Part shown: piece after piece, positions 51,927 through 60,306 of the stretch
How the letters are laid out: each line of letters opens with the position of its first letter
Position numbering within the stretch: position 1 is the stretch's first letter
Assembly: GCF_002261215.1 (NCBI RefSeq)
Contig: NZ_NEVS01000004.1
Span: forward strand, 2,046,001-2,110,000
From: Bordetella genomosp. 11
GTDB taxonomy: Bacteria; Pseudomonadota; Gammaproteobacteria; Burkholderiales; Burkholderiaceae_B
Direction of reading: 5' to 3'
Length of the DNA: 64,000 nt
Translations under genes and position numbers: made by a program
The notes under the pieces: generated by a model
Told to the model about the DNA's origin: nothing
The model's database searches: none
Seen by the model: the letters and a program-made list of their open reading frames with translations, nothing else

Positions 51927-52919
51927 ATGAAATTGTCTCTGACCCTGCGCCTGGCGGCGGCCGCCGCGGGCGCCCTCGTCGCGGCGGCATCCGCCACCGT
52001 GCACGCCGCCGACGCGGCCTATCCATCCAAGCCCGTCACGATCATCGTGCCTTTCGGCGCCGGTGGCGTGGCCGACGCGATTCCGCGCATCGTCGGACAG
52101 AAGCTGAACGAGATGTGGGGCGTACCGGTCATCATCGAGAACCGCCCTGGCGCCTCCGGCAACCTGGGCATGGGACAGGTGGCGCGGGCCGCGCCCGACG
52201 GCTACACGCTGGGCCTGGCGCCGGCCGGCAACCTGACCGTCAACCCCCTGCTCTATACGAACCTGAACTTCGATACGGCGCACGCCTTCGCCCCGATCAC
52301 CCTGCTGGCGACCTCGCCCAATATCCTGGTGGTCAACCCCGCCATGCCGGCCAAGGACTTCAAGTCTTTCATCGCCTACGCCAAGGAAAGGCCGGGCAAG
52401 CTGAACTTTGCCTCCCCGGGCGCGGGCAGCGGCGCGCATCTGGCCGGCGAGCTGCTTAACCAATCCGCCGGCATCAACACCATGCACATCCCCTACAACG
52501 GCATGGCGCCGGCGGTCACCGACGTCGTCGCCGGCAACGTCGACATGATGTTCGCGGGCGTCTCCAGCGTGCTGCCCTTCATCCGCGGCGGCAAACTGCG
52601 CGCGCTGGCCATTGCCGGCCCGCAGCGCCTGCCGCAATTGCCGGATGTTCCCACCGTCGCCGAAAGCGGCTATCCGGGCTTCGATGTGACGTCGTGGTAC
52701 GGACTGGTCGCGCCGGCCAAGACCCCGCCCGCCGTCCTGGAGAAGCTGCAGCGCGACATCGCCACCGTGCTGAAGGATCCCGCCGTGCGCAAGAAATTCG
52801 AAGACCAGGGCGTGGATCCCGCCAACACCACCACCCCAGAATTCGCCGCCATGATCCAGAACGAATCCCGCAAATGGGCGGAGATCGTCAAGACGGCCGG
52901 CATCAAGCCTATCCAATGA
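51927..52919 (+). CDS. Bug/TctC-family solute receptor in the hut gene run
   Basis: A 330-aa periplasmic receptor: a signal rich in Ala (MKLSLTLRLAAAAAGALVAA, cut near VHAADA), then SKPVTIIVPFGAGGVADAIP, PVIIENRPGASGNLGMGQVA, APDGYTLGLAPAGNLTVNPL and HIPYNGMAPAVTDVVAGNVD. AAGGGGAA lies before the ATG. It begins 158 bp after hutU and is followed 13 bp later by the cyclodeaminase-family gene in the same direction. Position suggests a ligand related to histidine, urocanate or another amino acid, but this is inference. Confidence 0.92.
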   Translation: MKLSLTLRLAAAAAGALVAAASATVHAADAAYPSKPVTIIVPFGAGGVADAIPRIVGQKLNEMWGVPVIIENRPGASGNLGMGQVARAAPDGYTLGLAPAGNLTVNPLLYTNLNFDTAHAFAPITLLATSPNILVVNPAMPAKDFKSFIAYAKERPGKLNFASPGAGSGAHLAGELLNQSAGINTMHIPYNGMAPAVTDVVAGNVDMMFAGVSSVLPFIRGGKLRALAIAGPQRLPQLPDVPTVAESGYPGFDVTSWYGLVAPAKTPPAVLEKLQRDIATVLKDPAVRKKFEDQGVDPANTTTPEFAAMIQNESRKWAEIVKTAGIKPIQ

Positions 52920-52932
52920 GCCTGGAGACATC

Positions 52933-53937
52933 ATGCAGTCCATCGACATTACCTATCTGAACGGGCCGGACGTCAAAGCCCTGGACATCACCGACGCGGA
53001 GATCCTGGCCGCGGTGGAAGGCGCCCTGCGCGCGCAGGGCCAGGGCAAGACCGTGATCGAGCCGCGCGTGCACCTGATCCCGGAATCCTCGGACAAGGGA
53101 CATTTCAATGTGCTGCGCGGCTATATCGAACCGCTGCACGTGGCCGGGGTGAAGGTCGTCAGCGACTTCGTCGATAACTACAAGGTCGGCCTGCCGTCGG
53201 AAATGGCGCTGCTGAACCTGTTCGATCCGGTCACCGGCAAGCCGCTGGCCATCGTCGATGCGACGGCCATCACCGATATGCGCACCGGCGCGGTCACCGC
53301 GCTGGGCGCCAGGCACCTGGCCCGCCGCGGCAGCAAGGTGCTGGGGCACATCGGCGCGCGCGGCACGTCGTACTGGAACGTGCGCCTGCTGGACAGCCTT
53401 TTCGACTTCGACGAGATCCGCGTCCATTCGCGCCGCCCGGAAAGCCGCCAGGCCTTCGGCGACCGCCTGTCGCGCGACCTGGGCAAGCCGGTGAAGGTAG
53501 TGGACGATTGGGAATCCTGCGTGCGCGACGCCGATATCGTGGTCGAAGCCTCGCGCCTGCCGGAGCCCACGCCGCTGCTGAAGACGGAATGGATCAAGCC
53601 GGGCGCGCTGGTCATGCCTTACGGCACCATGAGCGCCGTCGAACTGTCGCTGACCGACATCATGAGCAAGGTGGTGGTCGACGACTGGGGCCAGTGCCGC
53701 AAGGGCCTGCCCTTCGGCGCGCTGCGCGCGCACGTGGACAGCGACCGCATCACCCAGGAAAACCTGCACGCGGAAATCGGCCAGATCGTCGCCGGCCTGA
53801 AGCCCGGTCGCGAGCGCGAAGACGAAACCATCCTGTTCTGGCATCGCGGCCTGTCCACCACGGATATCGCCCTGGGCCAGGCCATGCTGGACAAGGCACG
53901 CCGCATGGGTATCGGCCAAACCCTGAAGTTCGCCTGA
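52933..53937 (+). CDS. Ornithine cyclodeaminase/mu-crystallin family protein
   Basis: A 334-aa NAD(P)-dependent enzyme of the family that includes ornithine cyclodeaminase, ketimine reductase and alanine dehydrogenase. Substrate-binding PRVHLIPESSDKGHFNVLRG and VKVVSDFVDNYKVGLPSEMA, the loop DATAITDMRTGAVTALGARH and the late LPFGALRAHVDSDRITQ are family-like. The Rossmann loop reads VLGHIGARGTSYWN where GxGxQA is usual, so cofactor use may differ. CTGGAGACATC precedes the ATG. It sits between the Bug receptor and the PhnD-like gene; a role in handling an amino-acid-derived imine is a guess. Confidence 0.85.
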   Translation: MQSIDITYLNGPDVKALDITDAEILAAVEGALRAQGQGKTVIEPRVHLIPESSDKGHFNVLRGYIEPLHVAGVKVVSDFVDNYKVGLPSEMALLNLFDPVTGKPLAIVDATAITDMRTGAVTALGARHLARRGSKVLGHIGARGTSYWNVRLLDSLFDFDEIRVHSRRPESRQAFGDRLSRDLGKPVKVVDDWESCVRDADIVVEASRLPEPTPLLKTEWIKPGALVMPYGTMSAVELSLTDIMSKVVVDDWGQCRKGLPFGALRAHVDSDRITQENLHAEIGQIVAGLKPGREREDETILFWHRGLSTTDIALGQAMLDKARRMGIGQTLKFA

Positions 53938-53942
53938 TCGCC

Positions 53943-54764
53943 ATGCCGGCCGCGCCGCTGATCGCCTCTACCCGGATGTATGACGTCGCGCCGGCCGCAC
54001 GCGCCGCCTGGCACGCGCTGCTGCGCGAGGCGCACCGGCGCGCCGGCCTGCAGATCGCGTTCGTCGAGCATGGCTGGCCCACGCCGATCGGCGAGCTGTG
54101 GACACGTCCCGGGCTATGCGGCGCCTTTATGTGCGGCTGGCCTTACGCGCAGGCGCGGCGCGCGGGGCAAGCCTACACCCCCATTGCCGCAGTGGCGCCC
54201 GACTGGCCCGCCTACGGCGGCCAGGCCCGCTATCGCAGCGAGTTCCTGGTGCGCGACGATGCGGGATGGTCGCGCCTGGAGGACGCTTTGGGCAGCCGCT
54301 ACGGCTGGATGGTGCGCGACTCGCAATCGGGATGGAATGCCCCCCGCCGGATGCTGGCATCGCTGGTGCGCGAACGCGGCGGATCGCTCTTCCGGGAAAG
54401 CAAGGGCCCCTACGGCAACCCCCGCGGCCTGTTGCAGGCATTGCGGGAGAACGACATCGATATCACCGCGGTGGACGGCTGGTACCTGGATCTGCTGCGC
54501 GCCCACGATCCCTCCGTCCTGCAGGGGCTATGCACGGTCGCCTGCACGCCATGGACGCCGAATCCGCTGCTGGTCAGCGGCCCCGACGTCGATGCCGATG
54601 TGTCCGCGCGGCTGTCGGGCGCGCTGCTCGCGATGCACCAGGATACGTCGGGCGCACGGCTGCTGCATGACGCGCACGTCGCCCGGTTCCTGCCCGTGGA
54701 CCCGCGCGGCTATGACGTCCTGCTGGATGATGGCGAAGCCGGCCATTACCCGGAAATCGCGTAG
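53943..54764 (+). CDS. PhnD-like substrate-binding-fold protein without signal peptide
   Basis: A 273-aa protein with the phosphonate/phosphite-binding (PhnD) type of periplasmic-binding fold. It starts MPAAPLIASTRMYDVAPAAR and contains LCGAFMCGWPYAQARRAGQA and DSQSGWNAPRRMLASLV, corresponding to the ligand-binding hinge segments, then ALRENDIDITAVDGWYLDLL. No signal peptide or lipobox is present, so it is predicted cytoplasmic, unlike a transport receptor. It begins 5 bp after the preceding stop with no clear ribosome-binding site, implying translational coupling. It could be a ligand sensor or an enzyme on the same fold. Function not known. Confidence 0.7.
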   Translation: MPAAPLIASTRMYDVAPAARAAWHALLREAHRRAGLQIAFVEHGWPTPIGELWTRPGLCGAFMCGWPYAQARRAGQAYTPIAAVAPDWPAYGGQARYRSEFLVRDDAGWSRLEDALGSRYGWMVRDSQSGWNAPRRMLASLVRERGGSLFRESKGPYGNPRGLLQALRENDIDITAVDGWYLDLLRAHDPSVLQGLCTVACTPWTPNPLLVSGPDVDADVSARLSGALLAMHQDTSGARLLHDAHVARFLPVDPRGYDVLLDDGEAGHYPEIA

Positions 54765-55227: not shown

Positions 55228-56109
55228 TTATAGCGGGCGGATCGCCAGGTCCCCGCGGTAGACCGTGTTCGCCAGGGTCTCGGCGTGCGCGCGGTGCGGG
55301 TCCGGCTCGGGCGTCAGGTTCAGCGACAACGTATGCTCGGCCAACTGCTGGCAGGTCATGAAGCGCACATCGCCCAGCTGCTTCAATTCCGTCAACAGGG
55401 TATCGAGCACCGCGATGCGGGCCGCCCGAGTCGAACCGAAATCGCCACGCAAATTCAGGGTGATGGGAATCAGCGTGCCTTCCGCATGCATCGCCGCGAT
55501 CTCGTCGCGCCAGATCGTCTGCAGGCGCGCATGCGTGTGGCGGGCGGAATAGACCGGAGCGTCTTCCAGCGCGAATGTCGAAGGCAGCTCGACCACTTTC
55601 TTGTCGCCCGCCAGGCCGAACACATACGGATAATCGGCATCCTGGAAGCTGGCGTCGTAAATGAACCCCAGGTCGGCCAGGTGATCCAGCGTCCTGGACG
55701 ACAGCTCTCCGCCCGGCGCGCGAAAGCCCTGCGGCGCCACACCGGCGATGTCCGCCAGGATATCGCGCGACGCCTTCAGTACCTGCGTTTCCTTATCGCC
55801 CAGGGTGGCGAAGTTCTCCAGGTCCACGCCGCGCGCCGCGATCTCGTGCCCATGGGCCACCAGTTCGCGGATCAGCTCCGGATGCCGGCGCGCGTCCATG
55901 CCGGGGACGAAGAAAGTCGCCGGCACGCCGTGTTTGGCGAACAGCTCGACCATGCGCGGAAAGCCGGCGCGCACGGCATAACGGCCATAGGAATAGCGGC
56001 CGAACATGCGTTCGGTGGGGACTTCCTTCAGATCGAAGGATTCCGCGTCGAAATTCACGGTCAGCAGGACCACCGCGCGGGCACCATGGGGCCAGGTATA
56101 CGTGCTCAT
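55228..56109 (-). CDS. Polysaccharide-deacetylase-family protein with metal ligands lost
   Basis: A 293-aa protein with the NodB/polysaccharide-deacetylase fold, of the cytoplasmic HpPgdA/PuuE-like branch (VPATFFVPGMDARRHPELIR, GFRAPGGELSSRTLDHL, DLGFIYDASF). Alignment with the overlapping neighbour shows all three predicted metal ligands replaced: Asn19 for Asp19 (VNFDAES against IDFDGPS), and Arg93 and Leu97 for the two His of HxxxH (AARGVDLENF against AAHGYLHEAW). It has no signal peptide. It may be a non-catalytic partner of its neighbour or use a different chemistry. The start codon overlaps the upstream stop by four bases. Confidence 0.85.
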   Translation of the reverse strand: MSTYTWPHGARAVVLLTVNFDAESFDLKEVPTERMFGRYSYGRYAVRAGFPRMVELFAKHGVPATFFVPGMDARRHPELIRELVAHGHEIAARGVDLENFATLGDKETQVLKASRDILADIAGVAPQGFRAPGGELSSRTLDHLADLGFIYDASFQDADYPYVFGLAGDKKVVELPSTFALEDAPVYSARHTHARLQTIWRDEIAAMHAEGTLIPITLNLRGDFGSTRAARIAVLDTLLTELKQLGDVRFMTCQQLAEHTLSLNLTPEPDPHRAHAETLANTVYRGDLAIRPL

Positions 56110-56933
56110 GCGAACGACACCTCTTCGAGATTGTTGCTATTGTCCCGGCACCATTGCGCGAACGTCCGCGACTCCATGAATTGCACGCCATCGTGCGTCT
56201 TCATGTAGGCGATCAGGTCGGACAGGGCCTTGGTGCGCGACGGCGTACCGGAGCCCCAGCCCGCGCGCGGATGCAGCGACATGACGAAGAACCGGTCATT
56301 GCGGTAGATGGCGTCGAATTCCGACTTCCATTGCGCCAGGACTTCCGACGGCGGCGTATAGCTGAACTTGTAGAACGGGAAGTCGTCCAGGCTGTAGGTA
56401 TTGTTCGGCAACTCCACGATGACGTCGTCCTGGCCCTTGCCGAAACGCAGGCGGTAGGGCCGGTCGTAGTCCTTGTCGCTGGAGTCGTAGATGTAGCCCA
56501 GCGACTTCAGCACCTTCATCGTCTTGTCGCTCTTGCGCCCCGAAGGCGAACGCCAGCCAAGAACGGGCTTCTTGATGATGTCGCGCAGGATGCCGTCCGT
56601 CTTGCGCAACAGGGCTTCTTCTTCCTCGGCCTTCAGCTCCCAGGCCTCGTGCAGGTAGCCGTGCGCGGCGACCTCGAAGCCGTTGCGATCGATATCCTCG
56701 ATCGTCGTGGGATGACGCTCGGCGTCATAGCCCGGGACGAAGAACGTGCCCTTGATGTTATGGCGGTCCAGCATCTCCATATGCCGCGGCACGCCGCAGC
56801 GGGCGGAGTAATTGCCCCAGGAGTGCTTGCCCAGCGGGGCGATGCCGCGCCCGACTTCGTGGCTGGGGCCGTCGAAGTCGATGCCGATCAGCACGACGCA
56901 GCGCATCGCTTCCGGAAATGTCGTTTGCCTCAT
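56106..56933 (-). CDS. Polysaccharide-deacetylase-family hydrolase with intact metal site
   Basis: A 275-aa member of the NodB fold, HpPgdA/PuuE-like branch. The predicted metal ligands are intact: Asp19 in LIGIDFDGPSH, and His91 and His95 in VAAHGYLHEAW. NYSARCGVPRHMEMLDRHNI, GTFFVPGYDAERHP and GWRSPSGRKSDKTMKVLKSL follow the usual order. No signal peptide, so the substrate is likely a small amide or cyclic imide inside the cell, not a wall polymer. The start at 56933 has GAGGA six bases upstream. Its stop overlaps the start of the degenerate paralogue, so the two proteins are probably made in equal amounts. Confidence 0.88.
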   Translation of the reverse strand: MRQTTFPEAMRCVVLIGIDFDGPSHEVGRGIAPLGKHSWGNYSARCGVPRHMEMLDRHNIKGTFFVPGYDAERHPTTIEDIDRNGFEVAAHGYLHEAWELKAEEEEALLRKTDGILRDIIKKPVLGWRSPSGRKSDKTMKVLKSLGYIYDSSDKDYDRPYRLRFGKGQDDVIVELPNNTYSLDDFPFYKFSYTPPSEVLAQWKSEFDAIYRNDRFFVMSLHPRAGWGSGTPSRTKALSDLIAYMKTHDGVQFMESRTFAQWCRDNSNNLEEVSFA

Positions 56934-57019
56934 CCTTGATCCTCGATGATCGGTTGTCGATTGCAGCGGTGATCCGGACCGGCCATCGCCGTGGCGATCG
57001 CCGGTCCGGTCCATGGCAA

Positions 57020-58048
57020 TCAATCCAGCTTGATGTTCGATTCGCGCACCACCGTGCCCCACTTCTGGCGTTCGCTATCCAGGAACCTGGAGAACTCCGC
57101 GGGCGGCATGTAGGCGATATCGAAAGAGCGGGCGCGCATGGTGGCCTGGAAATCCGGCGATGCGTAGACTTTCTCGATGGCCTTGTACAGCGTATCCACC
57201 GTCGACTGCGGCATGCCCGCCGGCCCGAACAGGCCTACCCAGCCCACCGCGCTGAAACCAGGATAGCCCGATTCCGCGATGGTCGGGACCTCCGGCAGCA
57301 CCGCATTGCGCTTGAGCGCCGTCGTGGCGATGGGCCGCAACTTGCCCGCCTTGATGTTGCCGATCTGCGTGCCCACCAGGTCCAGCATATAGTCCAGGCG
57401 GCCGGCCAACAGGTCCGTCGTGGCCTGGCCCGCGCCGTTGTACGGCACGCCGCTGGCCTTGATGCCGGCGTCGCGGTTGAACTTCTCCACGGCCAGGTGA
57501 GCCGAGCTGCCCACGGTCGTCACGCCGTAATTGAGTTTGCCCGGGTTGGCCTTGGCCGTATCCACCAGCTCTTTCAAGGTGTGGATCCTGGAAGACTCCG
57601 GCACGACCACGACATTGTCGAACGTCGCCAGCACCGTGATCGGCGTGAAGTCCTTGACCGGGTCGTACGGCAGCTTGGAATACAGGAACTGGTTCGCGCC
57701 GTGCGTGCCGGTCGATCCCACCAGCAAGGTATAGCCGTCCGGCTTGGCCTGGCCCACGAAGGCCGCGCCGATACCGCCGCCCGCGCCCGGCCGGTTCTCT
57801 ACCACGATCGTCTGGCCCAGTACCTTGCCGACCTCCTGCGCGACGATACGCGCCTGGATGTCCGTGCCGCCGCCCGCGGCGAAGGGGACGATCAGGCGGA
57901 TCGGGTGCGAAGGATACTTATCGCCTTCCTGGGCGGACGCGCTCCCCGGTACGGCGATGGCGACGCCGGCCGCCGCGACCGCCAGGGCCGCCGCGATGCG
58001 GGCGACAATGCCGCGGCGCGGCTGGGCGATTCTAAATACTTGGTTCAT
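57020..58048 (-). CDS. Bug/TctC-family solute receptor in the amidase cluster
   Basis: A 342-aa periplasmic receptor with a long signal (MNQVFRIAQPRRGIVARIAA, cut near GSASAQE). The mature part has [60 protein letters not shown] and VPYNGAGQATTDLLAGRLDY. The start at 58048 has GGGGAA upstream. It lies between the C45 acyltransferase-like gene (59 bp) and the deacetylase pair (86 bp), all on the same strand, so it probably brings in the substrate of those hydrolases. No membrane subunits nearby. Confidence 0.92.
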   Translation of the reverse strand: MNQVFRIAQPRRGIVARIAAALAVAAAGVAIAVPGSASAQEGDKYPSHPIRLIVPFAAGGGTDIQARIVAQEVGKVLGQTIVVENRPGAGGGIGAAFVGQAKPDGYTLLVGSTGTHGANQFLYSKLPYDPVKDFTPITVLATFDNVVVVPESSRIHTLKELVDTAKANPGKLNYGVTTVGSSAHLAVEKFNRDAGIKASGVPYNGAGQATTDLLAGRLDYMLDLVGTQIGNIKAGKLRPIATTALKRNAVLPEVPTIAESGYPGFSAVGWVGLFGPAGMPQSTVDTLYKAIEKVYASPDFQATMRARSFDIAYMPPAEFSRFLDSERQKWGTVVRESNIKLD

Positions 58049-58107
58049 GGATAGTTCCCCTGTGATGTTCTGAAAAACTCGTTTCGTACCGCATGGCGGT
58101 TCTCGGT

Positions 58108-59253
58108 TCATGCCGCGCGCCGATCCTTTCTCTGCGCAAGCTCATACCTGGTAAATGTCGGATCCAGCGCCGGCAGGTTCGCCACTTCCATGACGCCCCG
58201 CGCCGGCTGCATCACCACCGTGGAGACCGTCGCGCTGCGCGTATCTCGCCCGAAATCGCCCCGCGGCGGCCGGCACACCGACCACGGCGATTGGAAATCA
58301 TCCAACAGCGCCTGCTTCACCGATTCCACCGTAATACGGCCGACATCCGGCGCCAGCAAATCGCGCACGCGCTGCTCGCGATACAACGTGCACGGCGAAA
58401 ACGCGATGCCGGTGTCCTTCAGCTTGGACAAGGCCACCGGGCTGAGCCAGTGATTGGAATGCACCAGCAGGCCGTTCTGCGGCAATACCTGGAAGGTCTC
58501 GTCCGGCGCGCACTCGAAATTGATCGCGATACCTTCGCGATGGCACACGGCCATGTTGTTCGACCCGGTCTTGGGCGTGGCGTAGACCGCATGCAGCGCC
58601 CAGGCCAGATACGGGCTTTCCAGCGCCTTGCGGCGGATCATCGGCAGCGGCACACCGATCTGCCGGTAATCGCGGTCCGACTCCAGGTTGTTACCGGTGA
58701 TCGAAATTCCGGCCGAATTGAAGCCGGAGCGGGCCAGCATGCCGGCTTCGGTAAAGGTCAGGATGTCCGGCCCGTCTTCGCGCAGGATGCGCAGCACCAC
58801 GCCCGTTTCCGAGCATTCTTCCTTCCAATCCCAATTCTGCGCGTGGATCAGCTCCCCGTCCGCGGTCGCGTCGCGCGTCACCTTGACCGAAGTGCAGCCG
58901 TCATTGGTCTCTCCCAGCAGCCGCGCGCGCAGCTCCGGCTTGGCAGCCAGCTTCATCACTTCGGTGCGGGCATTCAGCAGGAAGATCTCTTCGAACCGCA
59001 CGCCCGCCCCTTCGGCGATGCCTTGCATCTCCGTCAGGTAGTTCTCGTCGAACTTGCGCACCGCGGGAATATAGCTGTGGATGATCTTGTCGATCTCGGC
59101 CCGTTCCAGCTTCAGGCGGGCAGCCTGCTCGCTGTAGTGCTCGATCGAACGGGCAATGCGCGTCCTGGCCTGCTCCCCGTAGGACCTGCCGCGCTCCAGC
59201 GGCGCACCGGCGATCTCGTATAGCGGGAATGGCGTTATAGGCTGCCTGCTCAT
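58108..59253 (-). CDS. Peptidase C45 / acyl-CoA:6-aminopenicillanate acyltransferase-like amidase
   Basis: A 381-aa N-terminal-nucleophile hydrolase of the C45 family, best known for the fungal enzyme that finishes penicillin synthesis; bacterial members hydrolyse amide bonds of largely unknown compounds. The self-cleavage site and nucleophile are Gly119-Cys120 in ETNDGCTSVKV, followed by the conserved HAQNWDW. GFNSAGISITGNNLESDRDY and VHSNHWLSP are also typical. No signal peptide. The start at 59253 has GGAGAG five bases upstream; a TTG one codon earlier is unlikely. It is the first gene of the cluster and diverges from a LysR gene. Confidence 0.9.
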   Translation of the reverse strand: MSRQPITPFPLYEIAGAPLERGRSYGEQARTRIARSIEHYSEQAARLKLERAEIDKIIHSYIPAVRKFDENYLTEMQGIAEGAGVRFEEIFLLNARTEVMKLAAKPELRARLLGETNDGCTSVKVTRDATADGELIHAQNWDWKEECSETGVVLRILREDGPDILTFTEAGMLARSGFNSAGISITGNNLESDRDYRQIGVPLPMIRRKALESPYLAWALHAVYATPKTGSNNMAVCHREGIAINFECAPDETFQVLPQNGLLVHSNHWLSPVALSKLKDTGIAFSPCTLYREQRVRDLLAPDVGRITVESVKQALLDDFQSPWSVCRPPRGDFGRDTRSATVSTVVMQPARGVMEVANLPALDPTFTRYELAQRKDRRAA

Positions 59254-59329
59254 CAATTCTCTCCATCACATCCCCTGAACGCGGGGAGGAGGATGATCCT
59301 AAGCGGGCACACTCATAACATCAAATTAT

Positions 59330-59347
59330 TTATACGAAATCTATAAT
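59330..59347. promoter_or_regulatory. LysR-type operator TTATA-N7-TATAA overlapping a TATAAT -10 box
   Basis: A perfect 5-bp inverted repeat with a 7-bp spacer (59330-59346), of the T-N11-A kind, lies between the C45 and LysR genes. The right arm forms a perfect -10 hexamer TATAAT (59342-59347), 29 bp before the LysR GTG start. A regulator bound here would block its own promoter and could activate the leftward amidase operon. Confidence 0.6.
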
Positions 59348-59376
59348 GCCATTTTTGATATGGATATCGGACCGCC

Positions 59377-60306
59377 GTGGAACTGGATACGCTGCGCAAG
59401 GTCAACCTGAACCTGTTGACCGTCTTCGAGCTATTGATGGAAACGCGCAGCGCCACCGAAACCGCCGCGCGGCTGCACACCACGCAACCGGGCATCAGCC
59501 GCAAGCTGGCGGAGCTGCGGCGGCTGCTCGCGGATCCGCTATTCGTCCTGGTGCGCCGGCAGTTGGTCCCTACCCCGCGCGCCCTGGAGATCCGCCCCAT
59601 CGTCCGCGAAGCCCTGGCGACCATCGGCGGCATCCTGGAAGACGGCGACGCCTTCGACCCCCTGAAGTCCGCGCGAACCTTCCGCATCGCGGCACGCCAT
59701 ACGATCGAATGGATGCTGGCGCCGGGGCTGCGCAGCTATTGCGACAGCCACGCGCCCATGGTGCGTTTCAGCTTCGTCAATATGCAGGGGGTCGCGCTGC
59801 CGGAGAAGCAGCTGGAGGACCACTCCATCGACATCGCGCTGGGCCGTTTCGAAGACGTCGGCGGGCGGTTTCGCACCCTGGCCCTGTTCGATGACGACCG
59901 CGTGTGCCTGCTGCGGCGCGGGCATCCGGCTGCGCGCACGAAACTGACGCCGGCGAACTTCTGCAAACTGCGGTTCGTCACCACCACCGATATGTTCGGC
60001 AAGGACAACGAAGTGGACACGTGGCTGCACAAGGCTGGGTTCCAACGGCAATTCGATTTATACGTGTCCAGCATGAGCCATGTGCCGTTGATCCTGCTGC
60101 AGACCGACCTGGCCGTCACCATGCCCCGCAAACTGGCGATGTATATCGCCCAGTTCCACCCGCTGCATGTGCTTGAGTTGGGGTTCAAGCTGGCGAAGTC
60201 ACACTACAACATGGTGTGGCATGCACGGTGGGATGATGTGCCTTCGCACAAGTGGATGCGGGGGGCGGTGGAACAACTGATGACGGGCAGCCGGATTCAC
60301 ACCTAA
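59377..60306 (+). CDS. LysR-family regulator of the C45/deacetylase cluster
   Basis: A 309-aa LysR regulator starting from GTG (an upstream ATG is out of frame). The helix-turn-helix is LNLLTVFELLMETRSATETA then RLHTTQPGISRKLAELRRLL; the NLNLLTVF start places it in the NodD/LinR-like subgroup. The effector domain follows from about residue 95. It diverges from the C45 gene with 123 bp between them, containing a T-N11-A palindrome over its own -10 box. The likely inducer is the amide substrate or its product (inference). Confidence 0.9.
   Translation: MELDTLRKVNLNLLTVFELLMETRSATETAARLHTTQPGISRKLAELRRLLADPLFVLVRRQLVPTPRALEIRPIVREALATIGGILEDGDAFDPLKSARTFRIAARHTIEWMLAPGLRSYCDSHAPMVRFSFVNMQGVALPEKQLEDHSIDIALGRFEDVGGRFRTLALFDDDRVCLLRRGHPAARTKLTPANFCKLRFVTTTDMFGKDNEVDTWLHKAGFQRQFDLYVSSMSHVPLILLQTDLAVTMPRKLAMYIAQFHPLHVLELGFKLAKSHYNMVWHARWDDVPSHKWMRGAVEQLMTGSRIHT

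Follow-up and report, generated by a model that had tools for sequence, protein, structure and literature searches.

In routine annotation, proteins of the NodB fold are called polysaccharide deacetylases. Three relatives described in the literature are of interest here. HpPgdA is a homotetramer in which each monomer has one metal ion (zinc), the pocket is closed and an arm reaches around the neighbouring subunit (PMC3084791). PuuE, a relative of HpPgdA, is described as non-metal-dependent yet active (PMC10967932). HxnM, from nicotinate breakdown in Aspergillus nidulans, is the proposed opener of 3-hydroxypiperidine-2,6-dione, HxnN then hydrolysing the open amide, and the closest structural relative given for HxnM is again HpPgdA (PMC9304392). 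Here, a five-gene cassette is described at positions 55228-60306 of a 64,000-nt stretch of Bordetella genomosp. 11 DNA (this whole stretch being called the window). Two adjacent NodB-fold genes, named CE4A and CE4B, stand in it with genes for a C45 Ntn-hydrolase, a Bug receptor and a LysR-type regulator. Directly established are the five genes, the conservation of the set as a unit, the difference between the active sites of the two NodB-fold proteins and a conserved intergenic block; the function proposed below is more tentative.

On the minus strand, transcription runs from C45 through Bug and CE4A to CE4B, and the LysR gene on the plus strand diverges from C45. This is the layout that an earlier sequence-only reading had given, and all five genes lie on the strands it named:

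59377..60306, plus strand: LysR-type regulator, 309 aa, GTG start, with the Pfam domains HTH_1 and LysR_substrate
59296..59363, no strand: conserved intergenic block, presumed promoter/LysR-binding region, from an alignment of 8 divergent intergenic regions
58108..59253, minus strand: C45 autoproteolytic Ntn-hydrolase, 381 aa, ATG start at 59253, PF03417 and NF040521 over cut-off, predicted nucleophile Cys120
57020..58048, minus strand: Bug/TctC periplasmic receptor, 342 aa, PF03401
56106..56933, minus strand: CE4A, NodB-fold protein with intact metal triad, 275 aa, PF01522, with D21, H91 and H95 plus D19, R128 and H221
55228..56109, minus strand: CE4B, NodB-fold sister without the metal triad, 293 aa, PF01522

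An unequal pair of NodB-fold proteins

The sequence-only reading had seen in CE4A and CE4B a pair of deacetylases, and had taken all the enzymes of the set to act on C-N bonds. Both proteins indeed have the NodB fold, but they are not alike. When 39 CE4A and 39 CE4B sequences (38 loci plus the window) are aligned together, the Asp-His-His metal triad is complete in all the CE4A proteins (39/39) and in none of the CE4B proteins (0/39), so that the two are probably not equivalent amide hydrolases. The base position of CE4B is Asn in the 38 sequences with a letter there (38/38); the Rhizobium CE4B proteins of loci L011 and L084 have kept both His residues, not the Asp. Wider residue sets were limited to the best 120 of 501 and the best 120 of 277 proteins. 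Within these best-120 sets, H91, H95, R128 and H221 of CE4A are kept in 120/120, and D19 and D21 in all 116 with letters there; the first His of CE4B is replaced by Arg in 119/120, and R221 and D223 are kept in 120/120. Since CE4B keeps residues of its own so strongly, it is conserved without a metal site and is not decaying. Within CE4A, the motif-1 and motif-3 residues switch together, being D/R in 20 of the 39 sequences and H/C in the other 19 (L012, L056-L072 and L082, the window's CE4A not being among them), which suggests an alternative catalytic dyad.

The predicted structures have pLDDT values of 92.5 (CE4A) and 92.4 (CE4B), and for both models the closest solved folds found by Foldseek are 3rxz from Mycobacterium smegmatis (the best match), 3qbu (HpPgdA) and 3cl6 (PuuE). 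The catalytic positions of HpPgdA all recur in CE4A, and no export signal is seen in either. HpPgdA, in contrast, is a homotetramer, for which the accessible part of its description gives no second, metal-free gene (PMC3084791). The NodB branch of the PuuE allantoinase is common to the cassette proteins by sequence and fold, and PuuE is metal-free like CE4B. However, its identity with CE4A and CE4B is only 22-24%, CE4A has the metal triad, and the scores against the PuuE model TIGR03212 (72.5 for CE4B, 67.8 for CE4A) are far under its cut-off of 424.6. Allantoin degradation was set aside on this account. No characterised deacetylase equivalog was recognised among the nine NCBIfam models listed for each NodB protein, all of which stayed under cut-off. 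A more distant fold match is BA3943 (7bkf), a NodB-fold protein named a CE4-family pseudoenzyme, as CE4B may be.

An HpPgdA-type site beside an empty one is the look to be expected of a heteromer built on the HpPgdA tetramer, by analogy with which a contact between the two proteins may be supposed. More likely than not, CE4A and CE4B form a single two-subunit enzyme, composed of a catalytic and a metal-free subunit.

Conservation of the cassette

A search with C45 found the five genes in unchanged order, with 76-87% identity, in Achromobacter HZ34, A. aloeverae, Cupriavidus yeoncheonensis and Bordetella LUAb4. The 76% of the Bug protein in L001 comes from an earlier tblastn, a 22-aa row of the later search being an extension artefact. 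Three further five-gene neighbourhoods (L045-L047) were found through CE4A, and a LysR orthologue occupies the same position in all seven relatives of the window type. The neighbourhood conservation that the sequence-only reading had asked for is thus seen in 7/7 of the closest relatives examined, and the set recurs more widely. The flanks differ: L003 and L047 have no flanking gene cluster in common with the other relatives, except a Bug gene in L003; L002 has only the LysR side in common with L001 and L004; L001, L004 and L046 have both sides in common; and L045 carries a Bug and an ornithine cyclodeaminase/mu-crystallin (OCD) gene that also adjoin the cassette in the window. The cassette is therefore bounded by LysR and CE4B. 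At E <= 1e-55, CE4A was found in only 1 of the 299 genomes in the family of the Cupriavidus genome, which suggests that the cassette reached C. yeoncheonensis by horizontal transfer.

Conservation extends to the region between C45 and LysR, where 35 of the 49 positions at 59314-59362 are identical in 8/8 sequences. This block includes an imperfect TCAAA...TTTG inverted repeat and is the putative site of the LysR regulator.

Beyond the close relatives, a search with CE4A only, at E <= 1e-60, in 250 genomes of the family of Achromobacter HZ34 (G001) gave 31 places in 28 genomes. Altogether 38 distinct loci were compared: 4 from the C45 search (3 of which are also among the 31 places), 3 on plasmids, 28 more from the G001-family search and 3 from a search of the order to which the Labrys genome G005 belongs. 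The counts leave out loci L073-L075 and L083, and those out of 39 include the window. CE4A, CE4B, C45 and Bug were counted from tblastn coordinates, the gene caller having missed or misjoined genes in several loci. CE4B directly follows CE4A in 38/38 loci; the two overlap by 4 bp in 27 of these, and with starts chosen automatically their spacing ranges from -4 to +53 bp. C45 lies at most 3 kb from CE4A in 28 of the 31 places, which were found without reference to it; the genomes of the three exceptions (L048, L056 and L057) hold another copy with C45. At E <= 1e-80, C45 is present in 28/28 CE4A-positive genomes against 19/222 of the others (Fisher p 7e-25, kinship ignored). In the order of G005, CE4A occurs in 3 of 397 genomes, C45 in 15 and both in 2, one of which has them about 14 kb apart on the same contig. 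C45 without the pair is thus far commoner (19/250 and 13/397 genomes) than the pair without C45 (0/250 and 1/397), which fits CE4A/B feeding C45.

The order of the genes is not fixed. C45-Bug-CE4A-CE4B, the window type, is found in 8 loci including the window; Bug-C45-CE4A-CE4B in 7, with a second Bug gene in 4 of them; and Bug-CE4A-CE4B-C45, followed by an oligopeptide-type receptor gene, in 15. The regulators also vary (LysR, IclR in L058, GntR). Over 33 loci, CE4A, CE4B and C45 show correlated protein distances (r 0.965-0.988, the best of 1000 permutations reaching 0.261), a correlation to which shared descent contributes. We regard it as nearly certain that the five-gene set is a unit.

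The C45 hydrolase

The C45 protein scores 34.1 bits against PF03417 (cut-off 23.2) and 282.5 bits against NF040521 (cut-off 85). Its nucleophile had been placed at Cys120, which agrees exactly with the ATG start at 59253: counted from there, residue 120 is the Cys of NDGCTS. In alignment this residue matches the Cys of the DGCTT motif of the acyltransferase 2x1d, and G119-C120 is invariant in 33/33 aligned C45 proteins. The family, the catalytic Cys and the surrounding motifs are common to the window protein and 2x1d, a C45 acyltransferase/hydrolase; the window protein, in contrast, clusters with a receptor and a NodB pair. C45 genes without the NodB pair are often accompanied by oligopeptide-type ABC transporter genes. 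An AptA-type aminotransferase is encoded in 5 of 8 plasmid C45 loci and is over the NCBIfam cut-off in both of the 2 tested.

By tblastn, 5 of the 8 plasmid C45 loci (L012, L014, L085, L086 and L087) carry oligopeptide ABC transporter genes together with an alpha/beta-hydrolase gene, and one of these five is on a Klebsiella plasmid. Several substrates were set aside: penicillin or beta-lactam metabolism, to which the C45 name is the sole pointer; hydroxycinnamic amides and siderophore breakdown, for which only the flanks of a single copy, in Rhizobium etli, speak; and ectoine, hinted at by OCD and AstE/AspA-like genes that adjoin a C45 relative in L006.

The Bug receptor and transport

The Bug protein scores 239.6 bits against TctC/PF03401 (cut-off 27), and its best solved relatives are terephthalate-binding proteins (205.9 bits). 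Bug27 and Bug69 are described as binding quinolinate (PMC11452294). Among the cassette proteins, Bug alone has a signal-peptide-like N-terminus by eye, in agreement with the earlier view that no enzyme of the set is exported. It had also been proposed that a carboxylated amide is imported. An uptake protein does belong to the set, but a carboxylated ligand is one option among others, since in some relatives an oligopeptide-type receptor replaces or accompanies the Bug receptor. A Bug gene at least 40% identical to that of the window is present in 31/39 loci, window included, and a family-5 receptor at least 37% identical to the L007 query in 21/38, a count that leaves out matches of 26-27% in L049, L050 and L080. 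No TctA gene was recognised in the window among four hydrophobic frames of at least 300 codons, the sole one tested being a Xan_ur_permease. Matches over cut-off to both the TctA and the AptA profiles are present elsewhere in the genome in 7/7 window-type relatives, so that other loci may supply the proteins for transport and for dealing with the freed amine.

Proposed route and alternatives

The HxnM/HxnN system and the related Pseudomonas putida YZ-26 imidase offer the closest parallel: an HpPgdA-related NodB-fold enzyme is the proposed opener of a cyclic imide, the open amide then being hydrolysed by a second enzyme (PMC9304392). HxnM is however a single protein, where a sister pair is found here, and the second enzyme is an amidase instead of a C45 Ntn-hydrolase; the cassette is likened to these imidases by description, through 3qbu. 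Two neighbourhoods bear on this parallel. In L080 (2875-15150), CE4A-CE4B is followed by an amidase-signature protein, in the company of two SDRs, MmgE/PrpD, a ferredoxin-reductase-like protein, a P450, PanE/ApbA and an OYE-type reductase. L081 (3373-19242) has similar company in its MmgE/PrpD, P450, ferredoxin-reductase-like, PanE/ApbA and OYE-type genes; of its 16 called frames 7 were tested, and none of these is an amidase. Such gene sets are reminiscent of the Hxn pathway, with its reduction and oxidation steps, its ring opening and its amidase, and possibly represent a route of heterocycle degradation; in the window type, C45 would hold the place of the amidase. Other substitutions are seen in L048 (14288-17680), where Bug-CE4A-CE4B with a divergent LysR has an M81 (MlrC-like) protein in place of C45, and in L057, where a beta-lactamase-fold protein directly precedes the pair. 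The nearest small-molecule relatives (PuuE, HpPgdA and HxnM) would point to cyclic imides or ureides, and an imide or lactam ring as the substrate is given about a third of our confidence.

The cassette could accordingly be pictured as a self-contained catabolic unit under LysR control. Bug would bind the substrate in the periplasm and hand it over to a TctAB-type membrane pair presumably encoded elsewhere. In the cytoplasm, CE4A and CE4B would act as one hetero-oligomeric amidohydrolase, with zinc and chemistry on CE4A, CE4B being the metal-free sister subunit that may complete and close the pocket, as the neighbouring subunit does in the HpPgdA homotetramer. This enzyme would open a small cyclic imide or lactam-like ring, and the self-activated C45 Ntn-hydrolase would split the resulting open amide, yielding an amine beside the acid. 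The amine would pass, in alphaproteobacterial relatives, to an omega-aminotransferase of the AptA type and an aldehyde dehydrogenase. As a whole, from LysR-controlled uptake through ring opening to C45 hydrolysis, this scheme is tentative, its chances being put somewhat short of even. Several observations weigh against it. The ring substrate is suggested by relatives that are distant and by two neighbourhoods only, the ligands of Bug proteins are varied small acids, and the Foldseek matches concern monomers only. The replacement of the base Asp by His and of the motif-3 Arg by Cys in 19/39 CE4A proteins, not in that of the window, means that the chemistry may differ among relatives. C45 is lacking near the pair in L048, L056, L057, L080 and L082, and is distant from it in L081 (about 14 kb) and L012 (8.4 kb). 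The co-occurrence and distance correlations, finally, ignore ancestry.

The order of the two steps could also be reversed, without any ring: the imported compound, an N-acyl or peptide-like amide, would meet C45 first, and CE4A/B would then remove a formyl, acetyl or similar group from the product. This linear route would suit the classical deacetylase role of NodB-fold proteins, the oligopeptide-type ABC transporter genes often found with C45 where the NodB pair is missing, and the AptA-type aminotransferase of the plasmid loci. We consider it unlikely, since the pair almost never occurs without C45 while C45 often occurs without the pair, as if the pair fed C45, and since the nearest folds are of the small-molecule PuuE and HpPgdA types. 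The relation between the two NodB proteins could likewise be a looser one, CE4B being an independent, metal-free enzyme of the PuuE type and the two catalysing separate steps. The activity ascribed to non-metal PuuE (PMC10967932) gives a precedent, and the strongly kept residues of CE4B, such as R221 and D223 (120/120 in the best-120 set), would be in keeping with a site of its own. However, adjacency in 38/38 loci, with mostly overlapping frames, suggests one complex, even if translational coupling alone would also explain it, and the PuuE model score of CE4B is far too low (72.5 against 424.6). Two independent enzymes seem unlikely.

A role in detoxification of a foreign or self-made amide (an antibiotic or a plant compound, for example), and not in nutrition, is improbable. 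The resemblance of C45 to penicillin acyltransferase and the sporadic distribution (28/250, 3/397 and 1/299 genomes) speak for it, but a high-affinity-type uptake receptor is part of the unit, and the aminotransferase and dehydrogenase genes added in relatives suit catabolism. That the genes are mere chance neighbours with unrelated roles is scarcely credible: they recur in rearranged orders and with different regulators, and the 28/28 co-occurrence of CE4A and C45 and the conservation counts contradict it.

Each of the proteins belongs to a known family. The sequence-only reading had pointed to no named pathway with this composition; neither the gene combination nor a fixed pair of intact and metal-free NodB proteins was matched in the open-access literature, most subscription papers lying outside the search. 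This NodB branch lacks export signals, travels with a solute receptor and an amide hydrolase of the Ntn type, and strictly keeps one sister intact and the other metal-free. Were CE4A and CE4B a single enzyme, the NodB fold would gain a heteromeric, pseudoenzyme-dependent kind. It is rather doubtful, but conceivable, that it is the first two-subunit NodB-fold amidohydrolase, with a zinc subunit and an obligate metal-free sister, in a dedicated imide or lactam route where C45 replaces the amidase. The scheme, if true, would provide a testable pathway for bacterial C45 proteins, which are mostly named by family only in the records seen.

Further features of the locus

The C45-Bug gap is 59 bp and the Bug-CE4A gap 86 bp, CE4A and CE4B overlap by 4 bp (ATGA), and the starts of C45, Bug, CE4A and CE4B are all preceded by a purine-rich stretch. 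All five proteins score over Pfam cut-offs, including CE4B (66.3 bits) and CE4A (62.6 bits) for Polysacc_deac_1 (cut-off 23.1), and the LysR protein for its substrate domain (65.6 bits, cut-off 28) and HTH (50.1 bits, cut-off 26.6). The closest named proteins belong to Bordetella genomosp. 9, B. bronchialis and Bordetella sp. H567. A promoter scan stayed at chance level (1 site, 1.1 expected); a terminator scan gave 6 sites against 2.7 expected, five within genes and the sixth on the opposite strand.

Upstream of the C. yeoncheonensis cassette (L003, 5127-6334), a second Bug gene, 47% identical to that of the window, precedes short pieces resembling CE4A, which may be what is left of another copy. 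In the window itself, an adjoining set on the plus strand (51927-54764) encodes another Bug receptor, an OCD protein and a phosphonate-binding-type protein, the first two of which are also encoded near the cassette in L045.

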